Origin: Clostridia bacterium
GTDB lineage: Bacteria > Bacillota > Clostridia > Oscillospirales > Acutalibacteraceae
Assembly (NCBI GenBank): GCA_017461235.1
Contig: JAFTYU010000012.1
Coordinates: 1 to 64,000, forward strand
Reading direction: 5' to 3'
Length of the DNA stretch: 64,000 nucleotides
The position numbers and the translations under genes are program-made. Under the pieces are notes generated by a model. It saw only the letters and a program-made list of their open reading frames with translations. It was not told where the DNA came from and ran no database searches. Below, piece after piece: positions 47,563 to 64,000 of this stretch; the stretch's first letter is position 1; each line of letters begins with the position of its first letter.

Positions 47563-50500
47563 TTACATCAACGCGTAATTCACCACTAACTGATAATCAA
47601 CTATAGTCAATTCATCGTCCCGGTTGGTGTCACCCGCGTGAAAATAATTTCCCGACAGCTCTTTATGTCCGTTTACTACTTGCTCCGTTGCAGAGACATC
47701 AATAACGTCAACTGCACTGTCACCGTTAATATCACCTTCGACAATTAGTGTGTATCTTTCCTTTTGGGTGCCATCGTAAACAACAAACTCAGAACCTGTG
47801 CCATACCAAGAATGTTCCTTATATACCAAAGACGGCAAAGATGAATAGCTAGTGTTATCTTGAATGTTGATTATACCAAAGAAATCTTTATTTGCAGTTG
47901 TTTTGGTGTAAATTAATTTATTAACATAATCAATCTCGGTATTATCTTTTGGCATCATATAACATAACTTGTTTTGACAAATAGAACTGAAAATCTCAAC
48001 ACTTACAGACTTTCCTGTAGTATCCGTATCAGTACTTGTCATTTTGCAATAGTAGTAAGGGTATTTGTCACCCTTTTTAGGAGTAAACTCGTTTGTGGTT
48101 GCTCCTTTAATGGCAACATCATCTCCGTTATCAACTTTGTTATCTAAAGAGCCGTACCACTGATACGAGCTATTTATTCCTATTGCATCAAAAGTTAATG
48201 GTTCAATGGAATTTTCATCATAAACGGTAGCTATATCCGTAACAATTGAATTCTCTTGCGAGATTTCATAGAAAGTATGACCATTGGCTTCTGCCCATGT
48301 TTCTGCCGTGCTACCTTTAGTGCCAAAAACTTTGTACTCTCTGCCTGTCGTATCCTCGGAGCAAGATTCAAAAGTACTTGGTAAGGCGACTATACTGTTT
48401 TTAACCTCGGGTAAAGATGCCACTGTTTGTATTTTATTAAACTCAACACGTTCAATAGAAGTACCTTCAAAAACAGCTTCTGTACTATTGGTCAATCCGT
48501 TAAGTACAACATATTTCATCATAGAGCAGTCAACAAAAAGATTTGATCCAACGAATTCAAGGTCGTCGGAGAACACCACTTTTTCTAAGTATCTGTTACT
48601 GCGGAAAGCTTGTTCTAAAACGGTGGTACATGAAGGGATAATAACCTCTTTTAGTGAGGGCATATAGTCAAATGTGTGTGTATCAACAAATGTGACACTA
48701 GGTAAATTCATAGTTTCAACATAATGACAATGGTTAAAGTCGCCCCAATAAACATATTGTATGTTTTTCAAGAAACTAAAATCAGTTGCATTGCAATCTG
48801 TAAAAGTATATCCGCCTAAAGTAACAAAATCTTGTGGGAAGTTCACTCTTTCTAACATATGACAACCACTAAAAATACCTTCTCCAAGATTACCATCAAC
48901 TAAAGAGGGTAAAGAGATTTCAATTAAATTTTCACAATTCAAAAAAGCATACCATTGTATCTCTTGGACATTAGGGAAAGTCATATAACTGAATGTACAT
49001 CCAGAAAAAGCATATTGGGGAATTGAAGTGAAATTTTCTACAGGAAGATTTTTTAGTTCACCGCACTGTCTAAAGCATTCTTTTGAAAGTTTGGTTAGTT
49101 TAGGCATATCAACATAATCAAGCAATTTGCAATTGAGAAATGATTGTATTCTTACTGTAGTAACTCCAGGGGCGTAAATAGCATCAAGATATTTACAATT
49201 TTTAAAAGCATAGTTATCAATATATGTTGCTGTTTCGGGGAGTATAATTTGCTCAATGAATGTCTTTTTTTCGAATGCGCTTTCAGCAATACCAGTTACT
49301 GTAGCACCAAAAATCTTATCAGGCACAATCGGGTTTATTTCATACCCATAATACCCTGTAACATATCCCTTGGAATTTATTGTCCATCCGTTATCATTAT
49401 CAGGAATATCCCCATAGACTTGAATATACACAGTTAAATCTGCTGGTTCACTTCTGTATCGATTCTTGGAAAATGTAACGGCACGTATTTTTGTTGTTAC
49501 ATCAAGTTCGATAGGTTCTGTGTATAAGGTGGCTGTTTGCCTTGTGGGGTAAGATGTATCTGTTGTGTAATATATTTCTTCACCTTCATTGCAGTAAAGT
49601 TCGAGGTACTGTGTTTCCGAATACATTGTTGTGGGAGATGGACGAGAAGTCAAACTGAAAGTTGGTACATCAGCAAGTTCTTCTTTGTATTCACTACCCA
49701 CAAGAGCGTTCATAAAATCTATGGTTCCGTACTTCGTTTTGTTACCTGCCAAAAGAGTTGAATCACAAGACGAATATAAGGCTTCTTTTACTTTTTCTCT
49801 TGAATATTCAGGATGAATAGAAGCTATCATTGCGCATAAGGAAACAACCATAGGACAAGAAAATGATGTACCGGAACCCATATCAGGTAAATTTTCACCG
49901 GGTGCAACAACTTCTACATAATCAGAGTTTCTGTTTGAAAAAGTTGACATTTTATCATGTTTGTTCATCGATGCAACAGCAAGTGCGTATTCAGCGCTTG
50001 ATGGATAATGCGCTTTTGTACTACTGTCGTTTCCAGCAGAAGTTATAACCAAAACTCCTTGCTCATATAACTTTGAACCAATGTTAATATTATATTTGCT
50101 ACCGAAGCTAAAATTAACTATATCAAGATTGTCTAAAAGCATTCGTTCTTCACATATAATTAAATTTGATACATACAGATTACCCTTTGAATCACACCCT
50201 TGATAAGAATGGATTTTTACATTTGTTGTGGTGCAGTCAGTTATTATTCGTGAAATAATATTAGCATGGTTATTGGTAATCTCAAATGTTTGGTTCGAAT
50301 TGCTTATAACTGAATATTCCACAGCAACTCGGTTTTGTATATCTTCTTCATCAGTCCAAACACCGCAATCAAGAATGCCAACTTTAATTTCAGGTAATTC
50401 ATTTTCGTTATAATTATTTTTTACATATTCAAGAGCTTCATAAACTCGAACTCTGTCATACGCCCAGTTATATACTGATGTTTCATCTGTACTTTCTACT

Positions 50501-50940
50501 GTTGTCATATCAACTTCAGTATCTGGTATCACCGATGAAACGGAAGATTTAGAAGAAAGTGAGTTGAAAGCGTTGATAGTTTCTTCAACCGATTCATACT
50601 GTATTACTTGCAAGTCTTCGTAACCCGTAACCGCTTCATCGGCACCGTAAGAATTTTCGTAGGATTTGTATGAACGGACAATAAGCCTGCAGGTTGCAAA
50701 GTCTTTGTATGTGTATTCATTCTCTTCGTAAATCGCAACGGTTTCTTCTGACTCGGACTCAACTGCATTTTCATACAAATCGCTGTTTTCCTCTATCATT
50801 TCATTCAGCTCATTACTGAATTCATCAAGAGAAATATTTGCACTTGTATTCAGATATAAATCTTCCGTTGCTGAAACAGGAATGCAGATTATTGATGATA
50901 GTAAAGATACACATAGAATAGTGCTTATTATTTTCTTCAT
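47563..50940 (-). CDS. Secreted subtilase with leucine-rich repeats and dockerin
   Basis: The protein is about 1125 residues. Residues 1-24 are a signal peptide (MKKIISTILCVSLLSSIICI). An S8 domain follows with likely catalytic Asp191 in VGILDCGVW, His225 in NNHANIIS, oxyanion Asn304 in ITSAGND and Ser359 in SGTSFSCPMV. The His region lacks the usual HGTHVAG and is divergent. Next come a chitobiase-like Ig module (YYTTDTSYPTRQTATLYTEP), a long BspA-type leucine-rich array (about 540-870) and a C-terminal dockerin with two repeats (GDINGDSAVDVIDVS, GDTNRDDELTIVDYQ). ATG at 50940 follows AGGAGG; the ATG at 51024 lies in a repeat. Confidence 0.85.
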   Translation of the reverse strand: MKKIISTILCVSLLSSIICIPVSATEDLYLNTSANISLDEFSNELNEMIEENSDLYENAVESESEETVAIYEENEYTYKDFATCRLIVRSYKSYENSYGADEAVTGYEDLQVIQYESVEETINAFNSLSSKSSVSSVIPDTEVDMTTVESTDETSVYNWAYDRVRVYEALEYVKNNYNENELPEIKVGILDCGVWTDEEDIQNRVAVEYSVISNSNQTFEITNNHANIISRIITDCTTTNVKIHSYQGCDSKGNLYVSNLIICEERMLLDNLDIVNFSFGSKYNINIGSKLYEQGVLVITSAGNDSSTKAHYPSSAEYALAVASMNKHDKMSTFSNRNSDYVEVVAPGENLPDMGSGTSFSCPMVVSLCAMIASIHPEYSREKVKEALYSSCDSTLLAGNKTKYGTIDFMNALVGSEYKEELADVPTFSLTSRPSPTTMYSETQYLELYCNEGEEIYYTTDTSYPTRQTATLYTEPIELDVTTKIRAVTFSKNRYRSEPADLTVYIQVYGDIPDNDNGWTINSKGYVTGYYGYEINPIVPDKIFGATVTGIAESAFEKKTFIEQIILPETATYIDNYAFKNCKYLDAIYAPGVTTVRIQSFLNCKLLDYVDMPKLTKLSKECFRQCGELKNLPVENFTSIPQYAFSGCTFSYMTFPNVQEIQWYAFLNCENLIEISLPSLVDGNLGEGIFSGCHMLERVNFPQDFVTLGGYTFTDCNATDFSFLKNIQYVYWGDFNHCHYVETMNLPSVTFVDTHTFDYMPSLKEVIIPSCTTVLEQAFRSNRYLEKVVFSDDLEFVGSNLFVDCSMMKYVVLNGLTNSTEAVFEGTSIERVEFNKIQTVASLPEVKNSIVALPSTFESCSEDTTGREYKVFGTKGSTAETWAEANGHTFYEISQENSIVTDIATVYDENSIEPLTFDAIGINSSYQWYGSLDNKVDNGDDVAIKGATTNEFTPKKGDKYPYYYCKMTSTDTDTTGKSVSVEIFSSICQNKLCYMMPKDNTEIDYVNKLIYTKTTANKDFFGIINIQDNTSYSSLPSLVYKEHSWYGTGSEFVVYDGTQKERYTLIVEGDINGDSAVDVIDVSATEQVVNGHKELSGNYFHAGDTNRDDELTIVDYQLVVNYALM

Positions 50941-50994
50941 ATGTTTTACCTCCTGAAATTTGTTTATGTTTTTAAAAATAGTTGTGGTTTGGTT

Positions 50995-51387
50995 TACCTC
51001 TCTAACTTTAGAGAGGGGGACCACCTTTTAATTAATTTTCCTCTTACAATTATCAAAAAGCGAGACTAAAATTTAATAAACGGATAGTTTTTGTCGGGTG
51101 GTGGAGAGTTTCCGATGCGGCAGCATCGTGGAAGCATCGCTTCCATTGACATAAAGTTTCTGTTATTAGGTTTTGGTTTTTAGTGATAGAATTATTGTTC
51201 TTATTTGCTTTATCGGTAAGGTGAATTTATTACAATTGAATCTTACGATTCAACAACGCTTACGCGTTGGGAACTCTCCACCGCTCCGTCAGACGGTATT
51301 TTTAAATATAACTACTGGCACGTTTAGCACCAATTACAAAAAGGCAAATATTGCAGGGCGGTCCCCCTCTCTTAGGCCAGAGAGGTA
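50995..51387. mobile_element. 393-bp nested inverted-repeat element
   Basis: A TACCTCTCT...AGAGAGGGGGACC block at 50995-51025 recurs inverted at 51357-51387 with a few mismatches. Inside, GTGGTGGAGAGTTTCC (51098-51113) recurs inverted as GGGAACTCTCCACCGC (51269-51284). Both arms themselves fold (CTCTCT/AGAGAG). There is no credible ORF. Size and plan match the element at 29333-29718, so these may be non-autonomous mobile elements. Confidence 0.55.
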
Positions 51388-58104: not shown

Positions 58105-58188
58105 GCGGGTGTGGCGGAATTGGCAGACGCGCCAGATTTAGGTTCTGGTGGCACCCCCGTGCAGGTTCAAGTCCTGTCACCCGCACCA
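58105..58188 (+). tRNA. tRNA-Leu (UAG)
   Basis: A class II tRNA with a long variable arm. The acceptor GCGGGTG pairs with CACCCGC, followed by discriminator A and an encoded CCA. The anticodon stem CCAGA/TCTGG encloses loop TTTAGGT, giving anticodon TAG, which reads CUA and related Leu codons. GGTTCAAGTCC is the T arm. It is a lone tRNA with a terminator a few bases after it. Confidence 0.97.
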
Positions 58189-58317: not shown

Positions 58318-59961
58318 TTACTGTTTAAACAACACTGTCATCAAGGATTGTTTCTGTTTTTCTGTAGGTAAAGTCAGTTTACCGTTATTTACAAGCTCTT
58401 TCAGACAATGCAGGATAAACCAAGCATCACTGTAAAAGATATGCTGTAAGCCGTACATTCTCATTTTCTGTAAATGTTTAGGTGTATTCTGAAGCACAGC
58501 ATTGATATAAGGTGTTTTGAGTTTTTCAAACTCATCCTTATACTTTTCTTTTATCTTATCACCGATAGATAAAAGTTTCTTTCGTGATTCTTCATCTTTG
58601 ATGTACACAATCCTCAAAGCTGTCTTGAATAATTCATCAGGTTTACCACTGACAGATATATATCCTTTTTCAGCAAGATAAGCATAATCATCTTCGCTCA
58701 GAATTACATCATTAAGATAATTGTTCAGTAGTGTTAAATCACGGGCAACAGATAACTGATAGTTTTCTTCGATGCGATTATTAGACCATTCAGAATCAAC
58801 AGTCCAAAGAGTTATTTTATCTGTAAGACCGTTCCAGAACGGACCTTTGAATTTTTTCATTTCTTCGTTGTACATAGGCGGTTTCACATCAGGTGTTGCG
58901 ACCGTTGCATAACAAATATTTTTACCACCATCAGGTCTTATTGTGTAAATATCTGAAAAAGCTATGCTTTTATCCAATATGCCTTCACCACTGAAAGCAG
59001 TAATAACCGGTATAAGTGCCCACATAAGAAAGTTCTTATCCTGAGCGTTATTGTAGCCGCCTAAAACGCAATCGCTTTCTAATAAACCTGTTTTTTTAAG
59101 TTCATTGTACAACTCATTTGCAAAGAGTTTTGCAGCGTTCAAATACATTTCATCGTGTAAGCGGTTAAGTTCTTCTGTCGGTTCTGATATAAGGATATTG
59201 CAAAGATATTTATCTTTCTGTTTTAATAGAAATCCGTATTCTTCAAGAAACTCTGCTTCACTTTCAACATACACAGGTGAAACACCTAATTCATCAGCAA
59301 TTTCATTTATTGATTTCGCTTCGTTTCTTACGGTGTAAACAATGTTCTGTGAAATAGCACTACGGAAGAAATTTGATATATCTCCCTTTGTTCCGATTTT
59401 ACCGCTGAAGCTGCACATATCAAATCTTTTGGGATTAAACTTTAATTCACTGGGTTCTCTCATAATTTCAATACCTCTTTTCAGTTCTTTTTTAGCTTCA
59501 AACAAATGCCACTTTACTGTGCCGACAGGAATATTTAATTCTTTAGCTATCTGCTCCTGCTTTTGGTTTTCATAGTAATACATAATTACTATCCGGCGTT
59601 GCAACTTTGAAAGGTAGGCGATTTCAGAATACAGCTTTGAAATTTCTTCTTGCTCAACGAGTGATGATTCAACACTCGGTGTATCATCACAAAGACAATC
59701 TTCCATATCACCAATGGGCACACCTGTAAAGCTGTGCTTATTGTCGCGGTAATAATTGCTCAGACAATTATGAGCAATAGTCCAGATGAATTTTGAAACA
59801 TCTTCAATATCATCACGCTTGAGCAAAGCAACATAAACCTTAGCCATAATTTCCTGAGATAAATCTTCTGCATCTTCTATACTTCTGCACTTTTTTAAAG
59901 CAAAACCAAAGACAGGTTTTAAATATTCAGTTGTCCATCTTTCAGCATCTGTTCTGTTCAT
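58318..59961 (-). CDS. ECF sigma factor with long C-terminal extension
   Basis: The protein has 547 residues, about three times the size of a normal ECF sigma. Residues 1-80 are sigma region 2 (AEDLSQEIMAKVYVALL, FIWTIAHNCLSNYYRD) and 125-175 region 4 (LQRRIVIMYYYENQKQEQIA, VGTVKWHLFEAKKELK). A winged-helix-like stretch follows near 205-255 (SINEIADELGVSPVYVESEAE). Then come some 290 residues that I do not recognise. The extension may sense a signal or replace an anti-sigma factor. ATG at 59961 follows AAGGAGG. A small membrane protein gene lies just upstream. Confidence 0.85.
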   Translation of the reverse strand: MNRTDAERWTTEYLKPVFGFALKKCRSIEDAEDLSQEIMAKVYVALLKRDDIEDVSKFIWTIAHNCLSNYYRDNKHSFTGVPIGDMEDCLCDDTPSVESSLVEQEEISKLYSEIAYLSKLQRRIVIMYYYENQKQEQIAKELNIPVGTVKWHLFEAKKELKRGIEIMREPSELKFNPKRFDMCSFSGKIGTKGDISNFFRSAISQNIVYTVRNEAKSINEIADELGVSPVYVESEAEFLEEYGFLLKQKDKYLCNILISEPTEELNRLHDEMYLNAAKLFANELYNELKKTGLLESDCVLGGYNNAQDKNFLMWALIPVITAFSGEGILDKSIAFSDIYTIRPDGGKNICYATVATPDVKPPMYNEEMKKFKGPFWNGLTDKITLWTVDSEWSNNRIEENYQLSVARDLTLLNNYLNDVILSEDDYAYLAEKGYISVSGKPDELFKTALRIVYIKDEESRKKLLSIGDKIKEKYKDEFEKLKTPYINAVLQNTPKHLQKMRMYGLQHIFYSDAWFILHCLKELVNNGKLTLPTEKQKQSLMTVLFKQ

Positions 59962-60064
59962 TTTGACCTCCTTGAAAGCTGCTTTCACCTATATAGACAC
60001 GGAAGATTATAAAAGGTTGGGAGTTTTTATAATAATTGTAGCATATAAACACTAATTTTTCCAA

Positions 60065-60616
60065 CTATACTTCTTGCAAAAACAAATTCCCATTCAAAAG
60101 CAATACTTGCAATTTACGAAAATTGTAGTATACTCCAATCCCTGCAGGCAATATCAATACAAAACAAAGCAAACAGGCAATAATTGCGTTTGAGCGGCTG
60201 TTGCACCATTTCCTGACTCTTCGGGTGATTTTTCTTTTCTTTTGGTTTGCTTCAATAATTTTACCGGTAAGATATCCTGAAAGAACAGTCACAGAAACAA
60301 GAAGCACACCCGAAACTAACAAGTGATATTGTGCAAACAGCAAAAACAACATAAGCTCTATTGTTAATATTGTCCCGACAATTATCCCCGTCTTCGTATT
60401 TTTCAACACCGGGTTAACATTTACAAAAATCTGTACTATAAGGCAAATCAATATCGCCAAAAGAAATGACCCTGTAAAACCTAACGACAAATCAAAATCA
60501 GCAAAATATAAGTCATACCCTTCAAACGCAATAATGAGCCCAAATGCCAGAAGAATTGGCACAGTCTGAAAACCCACTCTGAATAAATCCAAACTTTGTA
60601 CATCCTGTTTTTTCAT
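60065..60616 (-). CDS. Five-helix membrane protein of unknown function
   Basis: The 183-residue protein has about five hydrophobic segments (20-37, 46-66, 75-95, 97-120, 145-165) and basic loops. No family is recognised. ATG at 60616 follows GAGGGGGA. It ends about 100 bp before the sigma factor start on the same strand, so the two may be co-expressed and it could modulate the sigma factor. That link is position only. Confidence 0.65.
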   Translation of the reverse strand: MKKQDVQSLDLFRVGFQTVPILLAFGLIIAFEGYDLYFADFDLSLGFTGSFLLAILICLIVQIFVNVNPVLKNTKTGIIVGTILTIELMLFLLFAQYHLLVSGVLLVSVTVLSGYLTGKIIEANQKKRKITRRVRKWCNSRSNAIIACLLCFVLILPAGIGVYYNFRKLQVLLLNGNLFLQEV

Positions 60617-60792: not shown

Positions 60793-62613
60793 TTACTCTT
60801 CCATATAAGCTCGTTCTTTTCCTAACCCTAATCTCTTATTCAAATCAACTATATATCTGTTACCATCATCATCGAACCAGAAGAAGCGTTCGCCCTCACT
60901 TGAATAATTATATAGCCTTGTATCCGTAGCAAACCATATTCTATCCCTTGGGAAATCCTGAATTACAGAAGATATGGTATCCCAAATCTCATTAACATGC
61001 TCATCATCTTCACAAACATAACAGATTATGGTTTCTTTTCCTGTATGGAAAGCTTCTGTCTTATAATTTTTTGCCGCATACAAGTCGCCGTCAAAATTTA
61101 TAATACTTACCATCCTTACTAATTTTTCTTTGATGCTTTCCTTCTCGTTTGATAATTCAAAATCATAGGTGCGACGTACAGGCTCACCTATCATCAATAT
61201 GTCGTTGCAAGTAACAGTACCATAAATTTTGGCACCATTTTTTTTGGCACCAACCACATGTATCACTTTTGCGGTATCATAATCATTCTTGATTTCATCC
61301 GGGTACGAGCTCAACCAATAAGTCAACCATTGGTTAATTGCTAAAACAGATTTAACGTCATTACCATTTTGATATATATCAAAGGGATTATATCGATGTT
61401 CTCTGTTTAATTCACTTAACAATCTGGCTCCAACATCTGCTAATGAATATATCTGAAAATTCTCTTCAGCTGCAATACTATCTTTTTCAGTTTCATCAAC
61501 TGTAACAAATTTTGAAATTGTAACCAGATTATATCTTGCTAAGCGTTTGAAAATATCTGATAAACGATGAAGATTAATATTTCTCCAACCGTGTGATGTA
61601 TAACCGCTTGCAAACATATCAATTATCATTGCATTGGTCATATATCTGAACTTCTCTATCAGGGATAATGTATCAATTTCAAAAGCCCCTATATCATTTT
61701 TCATCAATGCAGATAACAGCGAGCTGTTGTTTCTTGCTGTAGGCACGGTATCGCCAACTTTAATTTGACGCAGCTTAGTATTTGGAACAAAAACAAAAGG
61801 TTTTTGCTCTGCATCCTTTATACGTCCATATTTATTTCGGTTTTGGTTATCCTCTTTTCTGCAATAAGGGGTTATTTCTCTACCTTCAATTTGCTCCAGA
61901 TATTTTTCTCTTATAAGCTGTAAGGCTTTTTTCCTTGTAAGACCATTTTTCAACGATACAGGAAATTCACCCGGAAGATATACAGATATGTTTTCCTGAT
62001 TCATATAGTATAAATTCCCGTTGGAAAAGCAGTAATCCAAGGCTGGAATTTTTATTTCAAAAAATGCTGTTCCTTCATCTGTAATGTCATAAACCGAAAC
62101 ATCAATATCATAAACTTCTATCTTATCTACCATTTCCTTATTCTTTCTTTTAAAGATATATGCTATATATTTTCTCAAATCTCTCCAAGAAATCAAATCG
62201 AAATCAGAAGCTTCATCAATATTTTCAGGCAGATACACAAACGGTGTTTCGTTCACCAAAGCCAAACTGCAATCTTTTATTTCTGTTTTCAAAAAAACAC
62301 AATCTACATCTGCCAAGCAGTTTCCATTATCCTCTGCATCATGGAAAACAACCCTTGTTTTTTTATATTCACCAAATTTTTTGTTAAACTCATCAGTTAT
62401 AGCTGTTCTTACCTCTTTCCATGTAATTTTCTGCCAGATCTGATTAGTATCGTTTCCATTTGCAGGCATATTTACGGTTATAGTATCTGCCTTCAAGGAT
62501 ACAACAAAATCGGATATAGTTATGTTGCTTTCTTCAAACAAAATACTTGCTTTACATTTATCAACGGAAAACTCATAAAAAGTAATTATCATACCATAAT
62601 TTTCAACATTCAT
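60793..62613 (-). CDS. Protein with three SpoVG-like repeats and a winged-helix-like region
   Basis: The protein has 606 residues and no signal peptide or membrane segment. Three repeats of about 75 residues can be aligned by eye (10-84, 87-160, 167-245). Each has a strand pattern ending in a hydrophobic run plus MP or LP (TITVNMP, PFVYLPE, ISVYLPG) and a helix (ITWKEVRTAITDEF, ISWRDLRKYIAYIF, LTRKKALQLIREKY). This pattern recalls the SpoVG fold, a DNA/RNA-binding regulator. Residues 315-400 resemble a winged helix (MTNAMIIDMFAS, LHRLSDIFKRLARYNLV). The remainder (420-606) is unknown. Its ATG overlaps the previous stop by 11 bases. The SpoVG relation is inference. Confidence 0.6.
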   Translation of the reverse strand: MNVENYGMIITFYEFSVDKCKASILFEESNITISDFVVSLKADTITVNMPANGNDTNQIWQKITWKEVRTAITDEFNKKFGEYKKTRVVFHDAEDNGNCLADVDCVFLKTEIKDCSLALVNETPFVYLPENIDEASDFDLISWRDLRKYIAYIFKRKNKEMVDKIEVYDIDVSVYDITDEGTAFFEIKIPALDYCFSNGNLYYMNQENISVYLPGEFPVSLKNGLTRKKALQLIREKYLEQIEGREITPYCRKEDNQNRNKYGRIKDAEQKPFVFVPNTKLRQIKVGDTVPTARNNSSLLSALMKNDIGAFEIDTLSLIEKFRYMTNAMIIDMFASGYTSHGWRNINLHRLSDIFKRLARYNLVTISKFVTVDETEKDSIAAEENFQIYSLADVGARLLSELNREHRYNPFDIYQNGNDVKSVLAINQWLTYWLSSYPDEIKNDYDTAKVIHVVGAKKNGAKIYGTVTCNDILMIGEPVRRTYDFELSNEKESIKEKLVRMVSIINFDGDLYAAKNYKTEAFHTGKETIICYVCEDDEHVNEIWDTISSVIQDFPRDRIWFATDTRLYNYSSEGERFFWFDDDGNRYIVDLNKRLGLGKERAYMEE

Positions 62614-64000
62614 CTGTTATTCCCCCGTTTTGTTTTAATAATTTACGACCACTTGGTTCACTTATAGTGCCTTGAATATTACAAAAATTACAACCAAAAA
62701 TTGTTATACCCTTGTATGAAGTAAAAACTTCTTTCTTTAAGGTATTTTTATTAATTATAATCAGCTTGTTATTCAATCTGTGTATTTCATAATCAGGATT
62801 CTCACTATCCTTAAACATATTAAATATAGTGTATACCTTGCTTGGCTCAAAAAAACGATTTCTTTCAAAATCATAGCCTACGCAAACCGGTTCATTTTTT
62901 TGAGTAAATCTTTTATCTGCTGTTATTACAAACATTTTATCTTTTTTATCCAGCATATTATCTTTTCCGAAAGAAACAGACGAAAATTTCATAGAAGGTT
63001 TTCTTATTCTGTTTACATTCATTTTGTCGGAAAACTGTTTTATTGAACCAGCAGTATCATACGTGTACAAGATGTTTTTATTGTACATTACTCTTAAAAT
63101 ATTAGGAAGTGACTCACCCACATATTTAGATTCGATTTTAAAATCTTTATTCAGTAAAATGATATCAACACCCGAACCAACAAGGATTTTTCCACTGTCT
63201 AAACAACATACCGTTTTAACCGATGAATTTAATGTCAAAATATTACGGATGCTCAGCGTCTCACTATCATATTCCACAACACTGCTTCCGAATGCAACAA
63301 TAAAGGTTTCTTCATTACAACTGTATTTTAAATCTGTTGTCTTTTTGCCCTTTAAAACATCTCTCATATGAATCTCGTTAGTCAACTCATATCTAGCCTC
63401 TTTCTGTTCGTACACATAAACTATACCATACATACCACTTCTGAATATTTTGTTCCTGGATGAGTTTATAATCGCACAGCCACAAGGCATATCATCCTGA
63501 GTAAGGCATCGGGTTTCCTCGTTATCTAATAATTGCCAGGTTAAGGGAGATGTATCGAAGGTGATTTCTAATTCACCACTCTCGTTATATCTTACGTGCC
63601 TATATGTATTTTTACTTGTGGTAATAAGGCGTAATTCTTCTGACTCAGTGTTATAAACAAACACATCGTGTTGTTTTAATATAGCCAAACAATTCTCATA
63701 GCAAGCCAGACACACAACAGCACCCTCACCCGTATCAACACACCATACAGGCTTATCGCTATCCATTGACCAGCATTTAACATTTCCATCTAAATCTGCT
63801 GAGAAAAATCTTTCTCCGGCTGCACAGAGTGCAGAAACCTGTGCTTGATGACCTGATCTGATAAAGCATTCTGTATCTATATAAGCCCCCTCAAAAGAAG
63901 ACGGATATACAGAATCTTCATACCACTCTGAAAAACGACAGCTCTTTAACTGACATTTTCTTAAATCCAGATAAGAAAAGTCACAATTATATAATCGCCT
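62603..64000 (-). CDS. Pentapeptide/WD40 protein, 5-prime end outside window
   Basis: The frame stays open to base 64000; 465 residues are visible and the start lies outside. The first visible residues (RRLYNCDFSYLDLRKCQLKS) have the pentapeptide-repeat pattern. A WD40-type propeller follows, clearest in GHQAQVSALCAAGERFFSAD then LDGNVKCWS, and more weakly in later repeats (VYVYEQ, ILVGSG, LLNKDFKIESK). The end ITIFGCNFCNIQG is again pentapeptide-like. Pentapeptide plus WD40 behind an NTPase is typical of STAND proteins (NACHT or AP-ATPase), so a larger protein is expected. An in-frame ATG at 63766 is internal to the propeller and not the real start. Confidence 0.75.
   Translation of the reverse strand, partial: RRLYNCDFSYLDLRKCQLKSCRFSEWYEDSVYPSSFEGAYIDTECFIRSGHQAQVSALCAAGERFFSADLDGNVKCWSMDSDKPVWCVDTGEGAVVCLACYENCLAILKQHDVFVYNTESEELRLITTSKNTYRHVRYNESGELEITFDTSPLTWQLLDNEETRCLTQDDMPCGCAIINSSRNKIFRSGMYGIVYVYEQKEARYELTNEIHMRDVLKGKKTTDLKYSCNEETFIVAFGSSVVEYDSETLSIRNILTLNSSVKTVCCLDSGKILVGSGVDIILLNKDFKIESKYVGESLPNILRVMYNKNILYTYDTAGSIKQFSDKMNVNRIRKPSMKFSSVSFGKDNMLDKKDKMFVITADKRFTQKNEPVCVGYDFERNRFFEPSKVYTIFNMFKDSENPDYEIHRLNNKLIIINKNTLKKEVFTSYKGITIFGCNFCNIQGTISEPSGRKLLKQNGGITDEC

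Follow-up and report, generated by a model that had tools for sequence, protein, structure and literature searches.

The receptor gene and its partner

The DNA analyzed (the window, 64,000 nucleotides, G000:C34:1-64000) comes from a gut-dwelling Clostridia bacterium of the family Acutalibacteraceae and carries, up to its edge, two overlapping genes on the reverse strand, the structural gene for a STAND receptor and that for a partner protein of 606 amino acids (Table 1). A first-pass annotation made from the sequence had given both open frames, their strand and the 11-base overlap correctly, and this overlap likely couples the translation of the partner to that of the receptor. The same annotation had described a pentapeptide stretch followed by WD40 repeats in the frame open at the window edge and had proposed to look for a P-loop NTPase upstream of them. 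Extension of the contig past the edge completes this frame to a protein of 1109 amino acids (C34:62603-65932) in which a TIR_2 domain (residues 10-133, 79.1 bits against a cut-off of 28, E of 5e-22) is followed by a nucleotide-binding domain and then by pentapeptide and WD40-like propeller matches, which were found in the order described, all below family cut-offs. The nucleotide-binding domain scored 24.6 bits as NB-ARC, above the cut-off of 23.5, and 24.0 bits as NACHT, below the cut-off of 26.7. Intact Walker A (GDGGSGKT at residue 226) and Walker B (ILFDGLNE at residue 292) motifs are present, ruling out a reading in which no P-loop lies upstream, and the extension contributed a TIR effector domain besides the NTPase that had been looked for.

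Table 1. Coordinates of the receptor-partner module and of recurring neighboring genes; positions without a prefix are those of the window.
Feature	Position	Strand	Remarks
3' part of the 1109-residue TIR-NACHT-pentapeptide-WD40 STAND gene	62603..64000	-	gene continues to G000:C34:65932
Overlap of STAND stop and partner start, 11 bases	62603..62613	-	from open reading frame coordinates
Partner open reading frame, 606 residues	60793..62613	-	three SpoVG-like repeats, linker, winged-helix/Replic_Relax-like C-terminal half (open reading frame, profile searches, structure)
SpoVG-like repeat 1, residues 7-80	62374..62595	-	
SpoVG-like repeat 2, residues 87-157	62143..62355	-	alignment with repeat 1 reached by 0 of 500 shuffles
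SpoVG-like repeat 3, residues 164-242	61888..62124	-	most degenerate of the three
C-terminal half, residues 259-606	60796..61839	-	winged-helix and Replic_Relax-like (profile-profile comparison)
Standalone RyR genes	L006:3950-4219; L030:2836-3102; L083:10653-10925; G665:C26:236273-236542		
Recurring helical protein/PP2C/kinase-nuclease set	L062:4118-8501 with L030; L083:2893-10582; G000:C34:70832-72529		

With a P-loop containing both Walker motifs and C-terminal repeats of the superstructure-forming kind, the 1109-residue protein can be assigned by its sequence to the STAND/NACHT NTPases. C77 and E80 of the TIR motif C-x-x-E are invariant across the four STAND proteins aligned, and E80 is presumably the catalytic glutamate, as would be expected of a TIR NADase; the TIR domain is likely the effector of the system. 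Comparison of the STAND protein with PADLOC models revealed mostly the TIR parts of other systems and weak P-loop or WD40 matches (mad8, PDC-M54A, HEAT-ARM_XIII). The G+C content is 30-36% across the module versus 36-43% in the flanks read, and the number of promoters found in a scan (60) equals that expected from shuffles (59.3).

SpoVG-like repeats of the partner

The SpoVG-like fold that had been proposed for the 606-residue protein is predicted for repeat 1, whose model has the fold of PF04026 and resembles the SpoVG structures 2ia9, 2i9x and 2i9z, and the positional homologue in genome G714 (locus L030) has a true SpoVG domain, matching the PF04026 model at 86.6 bits. Repeat 3 aligns with repeat 1 of the same protein at chance level; it aligns with repeat 1 of the relative P0006 at a score reached by 0 of 500 shuffles, and with none of repeats 2 to 4 of P0006. 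When all 11 repeats of the multi-repeat members were compared with SpoVG profile to profile, a score of 28.6 was obtained versus a maximum of 15.4 in 100 column shuffles; the three repeats of the window protein alone scored 21.5 (match probability 17%) and the set of third repeats 15.1, the shuffle background being that of the 11-repeat set.

Other comparisons gave less. The 606-residue protein matched neither PF04026 nor any other Pfam family at E up to 1, and hmmsearch with a SpoVG profile gave it 4.8 bits, inside the shuffle range, and placed P0006 above all 1000 shuffles. Sequences for this profile were drawn from 16 loci, of which L019 yielded none, and one wrong-strand translation (L023) was contained in it; the corrected set has 15 sequences. 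In pairwise alignment with the true SpoVG domain of L030, the score of the best among the 11 repeats was reached by 26 of 500 shuffles. A search of PDB sequences with the repeat profile did not retrieve SpoVG (best E of 0.57, unrelated), and Foldseek with the model of repeat 1 gave no match at E up to 0.001. That the partner is an ordinary SpoVG paralogue was rejected, as it has no Pfam match and its own genome has no PF04026 match, versus 14 of 40 genomes (its own among them) that have one. From ordinary SpoVG the array differs in that three to four divergent copies stand in tandem in each protein and are joined to a winged-helix half.

The C-terminal half and its fusion to STAND proteins

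A profile of the C-terminal half matched standalone proteins of about 311-314 amino acids in other families of the class. In profile-profile comparison with five such Replic_Relax relatives, the four-sequence profile gave an E of 1.4e-16 and the window domain alone 7.8e-7, the alignment extending over about 240 columns. All three standalone relatives tested out of the five passed the PF13814 cut-off of 25.3 at 27-29 bits; the window protein, its homologues at L030 and L008 and both STAND-fused domains described below did not match this model. At the level of profiles, the C-terminal half can be considered homologous to Replic_Relax, and it departs from known members in being joined to SpoVG repeats or to a STAND protein.

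A search of the class matched 107 of 291 genomes, for the most part through short frames that correspond to the N-terminal part and presumably are ordinary SpoVG; the C-terminal domain was matched in 11 genomes besides the window's own. In two of these 11, G825 and G900, the domain ends a STAND protein of 1608 or 1654 amino acids, behind the propeller. These fused proteins score close to or below the cut-offs for TIR and NACHT. Alignment of the G825 protein with the STAND protein of G714 gives 322 bits, and in an unrooted tree of eight STAND proteins the one from the G714 pair clusters with both fused forms (support 83). The C-terminal halves match the fused domains with an E of 1.5e-23 in profile-profile comparison. 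In the fused forms this domain occupies the sensor end of the receptor, which suggests that the separate partner acts as a sensor or adaptor.

Distribution of the pair

That the two genes form a pair holds beyond the window: at four of four loci, a TIR-NACHT-pentapeptide-WD40 gene is followed at its 3' end by a separate partner gene, and additional TIR and nuclease genes occur in these regions. None of the three outcomes named in the first-pass annotation as refuting it (no P-loop NTPase upstream, folds unlike SpoVG, genes never adjacent) was obtained. Used as a single query, the 606-residue protein found 2 of 200 genomes of the family, and the profile found 4 of 398 (own genome included in both); two of these four also came up as loci in the contig scan. 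At the level of the order, the own genome was the sole match among 394 genomes searched with the protein itself and among 255 searched with the profile. The few independent loci and the presence of other TIR genes in the regions would be compatible with a STAND gene that merely travels together with an unrelated regulator. Such joint cargo is nevertheless very improbable, as the genes overlap at three of the four loci (by 11 bases in the window and by 17 each at L006 and L008) and are separated by just 10 bases at the fourth (L030), while the STAND proteins have diverged to 22-34% identity to the window protein, and as fused forms exist.

A reverse search with the C-terminal half of the STAND protein matched 4 of 200 genomes of the family at E up to 1e-5: the window and G106, both with partner; G036, with two weaker relatives; and G158, with an internal stop. 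Of the two in G036, one has the ordinary WD40 form with many repeats and lacks a partner within the 19 kb read, and the other runs off the contig end. A related TIR-NACHT-pentapeptide-WD40 protein at L094:7884-12251 has no partner and ends in a tail motif which by eye is similar to that of the paired STAND proteins. At L008:9944-12144, in a sheep-gut metagenome-assembled genome, the partner gene as assembled is split into two overlapping frames. A phage- or plasmid-borne family was rejected, since no relatives of the partner were found in three scans of viral contigs (exact peptide patterns, which detect close relatives only), in plasmids or in phages (the phages with P0006 as the only query); a fourth scan of viral contigs, for the nuclease described below, was empty as well.

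What the partner may do

In Staphylococcus aureus SpoVG, a basic doublet, K50-R51, follows the motif MPS directly. PMC3688583 describes K50-R51 as the DNA-binding doublet and as essential for binding. None of the 11 repeats of the multi-repeat members has a basic doublet after MP(S), in contrast to the G714 homologue, whose SpoVG domain retains it. Among the 15 ordinary SpoVG proteins of relatives, two basic residues follow MPS in six, one in four and none in five, and because of these last five the loss in the repeats is no proof of lost binding. The array may dock to proteins and not bind nucleic acid, the missing doublet being just a hint in this direction.

These observations bear on the role first proposed for the partner, that of a nucleic-acid-binding regulator that would act on DNA or RNA as the transcriptional or RNA-binding output of the STAND sensor. 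DNA binding by SpoVG proteins, RNA binding as reported in PMC4959528, the winged-helix half, the basic pair kept in G714 and the five ordinary proteins without it would all be compatible with such an output. As the repeats lack the doublet, the TIR domain already provides an output and the C-terminal domain is found at the sensor end of two STAND proteins, this role is left unsupported and we consider it unlikely. Less likely again would be a guard or inhibitor, in which the SpoVG-like array locks a toxic TIR-STAND protein in the off state, similar to an antitoxin or immunity protein, until an invader titrates or degrades the array.

We tentatively favor, at somewhat less than an even chance, a two-protein NOD-like receptor (NLR)-like STAND system against invaders, with the partner as a C-terminal subunit that has become detached and serves as sensor or adaptor; the receptor itself is NLR-like and probably anti-phage. 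The TIR-NACHT-pentapeptide-WD40 protein would be switch and effector, and the partner would dock on its propeller by way of the SpoVG-like array. The winged-helix/Replic_Relax-like half would then recognize a product or activity of the invader, such as a DNA end, a replication complex or a protein, whereupon NACHT would oligomerize and TIR would cleave NAD+. Infection might be halted by loss of NAD+ or by an ADP-ribose-type signal that a neighboring RyR-like/PD-(D/E)XK nuclease would read. We infer the defense role as well as every binding and catalytic step from the arrangement of domains and genes. Ryanodine receptors (RyR) respond to cyclic ADP-ribose, and from this analogy and the gene neighborhood one may speculate that the nuclease reads a signal made by TIR. 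The more specific form of this system, a split NLR whose separate sensing end combines the SpoVG docking array with a Replic_Relax-like module monitoring mobile-element replication or DNA, and in which the RyR-like nuclease, mostly with a standalone RyR, could read the ADP-ribose-type signal of TIR, is rather doubtful.

Several observations weigh against a detached sensor. The known cases amount to just four separate pairs, of which those of G106 and G665 are closely related, and two fusions. Since no SpoVG domain is seen in the fused forms, the argument from fusion is limited to the C-terminal half, and the window domain alone matches the fused pair weakly (match probability 41%, E of 2.8e-4). 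The full-length AlphaFold2 model of the partner, with a predicted local distance difference test (pLDDT) score of 36, is too poor for judging docking, and the PADLOC 2023 models gave no match for the partner and no named system. Nuclease copies in G026, by eye beside CRISPR-Cas-like genes, and in G056 occur without the STAND-partner pair in the stretches read; because of these copies, and because nuclease and pair lie about 10 kb apart in G665, a functional link of the nuclease is unproven.

Known bacterial NLR-like STAND proteins such as Avs and bNACHT are known to sense with their own C-terminal repeats. The receptor described here shares with them the effector-NACHT-repeat architecture, an intact P-loop and a defense-type neighborhood, and differs in being accompanied by a separate SpoVG-array/Replic_Relax-like protein. 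STAND, TIR, SpoVG and Replic_Relax are each known, and judged by its domains the combination would fall within NLR-like STAND immunity. The pairing of STAND with SpoVG repeats was not found in the open-licence literature, nor was SpoVG together with replication-relaxation; for SpoVG with NACHT, the match concerns SigD-regulated genes in Bacillus, and the main text of a 2020 eLife survey of NTP-dependent conflict systems (PMC7159879) does not mention SpoVG. If the proposal is true, an NLR-type receptor outsources its sensor to a partner made of domains whose annotation is that of housekeeping or plasmid regulators, and genes now annotated as SpoVG may in some cases merit re-examination as immune parts. 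Natural fused and split versions allow direct comparison, and recurring RyR genes near TIR genes offer a testable link, namely that cyclic ADP-ribose made by TIR signals to bacterial RyR domains.

Neighboring genes

Upstream of the STAND gene and on the same strand lie a 163-residue open reading frame, a protein of 1390 amino acids and a 565-residue protein without family match. The 1390-residue protein contains a kinase domain (2.2e-12) and, at its C-terminus, a Card1-type endonuclease domain (1.9e-06, 27.9 bits versus a cut-off of 26.4). It is like Card1-type PD-(D/E)XK nucleases in this domain and unlike them in its length and in the kinase, Rossmann-like and RyR-like regions in front, the latter two recognized by eye; the RyR stretch of P0004 scored 15.9 bits and the NAD-binding matches in P0008 were likewise below cut-off. 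A homologue of the nuclease is found upstream on the same strand at four of four loci, that is, in the window, G106 (32% identity), G714 and G665 (28% identity, 2e-83), and all three copies aligned first have D1298, E1311 and K1313. A copy in G196 is divided between two short contigs, and the stretches read there contain no STAND-partner pair.

A standalone RyR gene (PF02026, >120 bits) directly follows the nuclease gene in G106, G714 and G665; altogether, four genomes have such a gene of about 100 codons right at the 3' side of the RyR-like/PD-(D/E)XK nuclease gene, in three cases near TIR genes. None was found beside the nuclease of the window in this search. A helical protein resembling P0005 (E of 6e-20 for G714, by eye for G026), a PP2C phosphatase and the kinase-nuclease form a recurring set, which in G026 occurs beside CRISPR-Cas-like genes without the STAND pair; no PP2C phosphatase was seen in the set of the window. 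Upstream of the G714 module, at L062:840-2309, lies a JAB-ThiF fusion of the ubiquitin-like pathway type. Further TIR genes were detected at L006 (Pfam) and L008 (by eye), and the L006 region adjoins, by eye, prophage tail, lysis and serine-recombinase genes.

In the window, the pair is followed directly downstream by a 183-residue open reading frame (60065-60616) whose product resembles a membrane protein, then by an extracytoplasmic function (ECF) sigma factor (58318-59988), whose C-terminus is extended by about 380 amino acids, and a tRNA-Leu (58105-58188). By eye, a large protein encoded at 47563-51024 of the window resembles subtilases, carries leucine-rich-type repeats and has an end like a dockerin.
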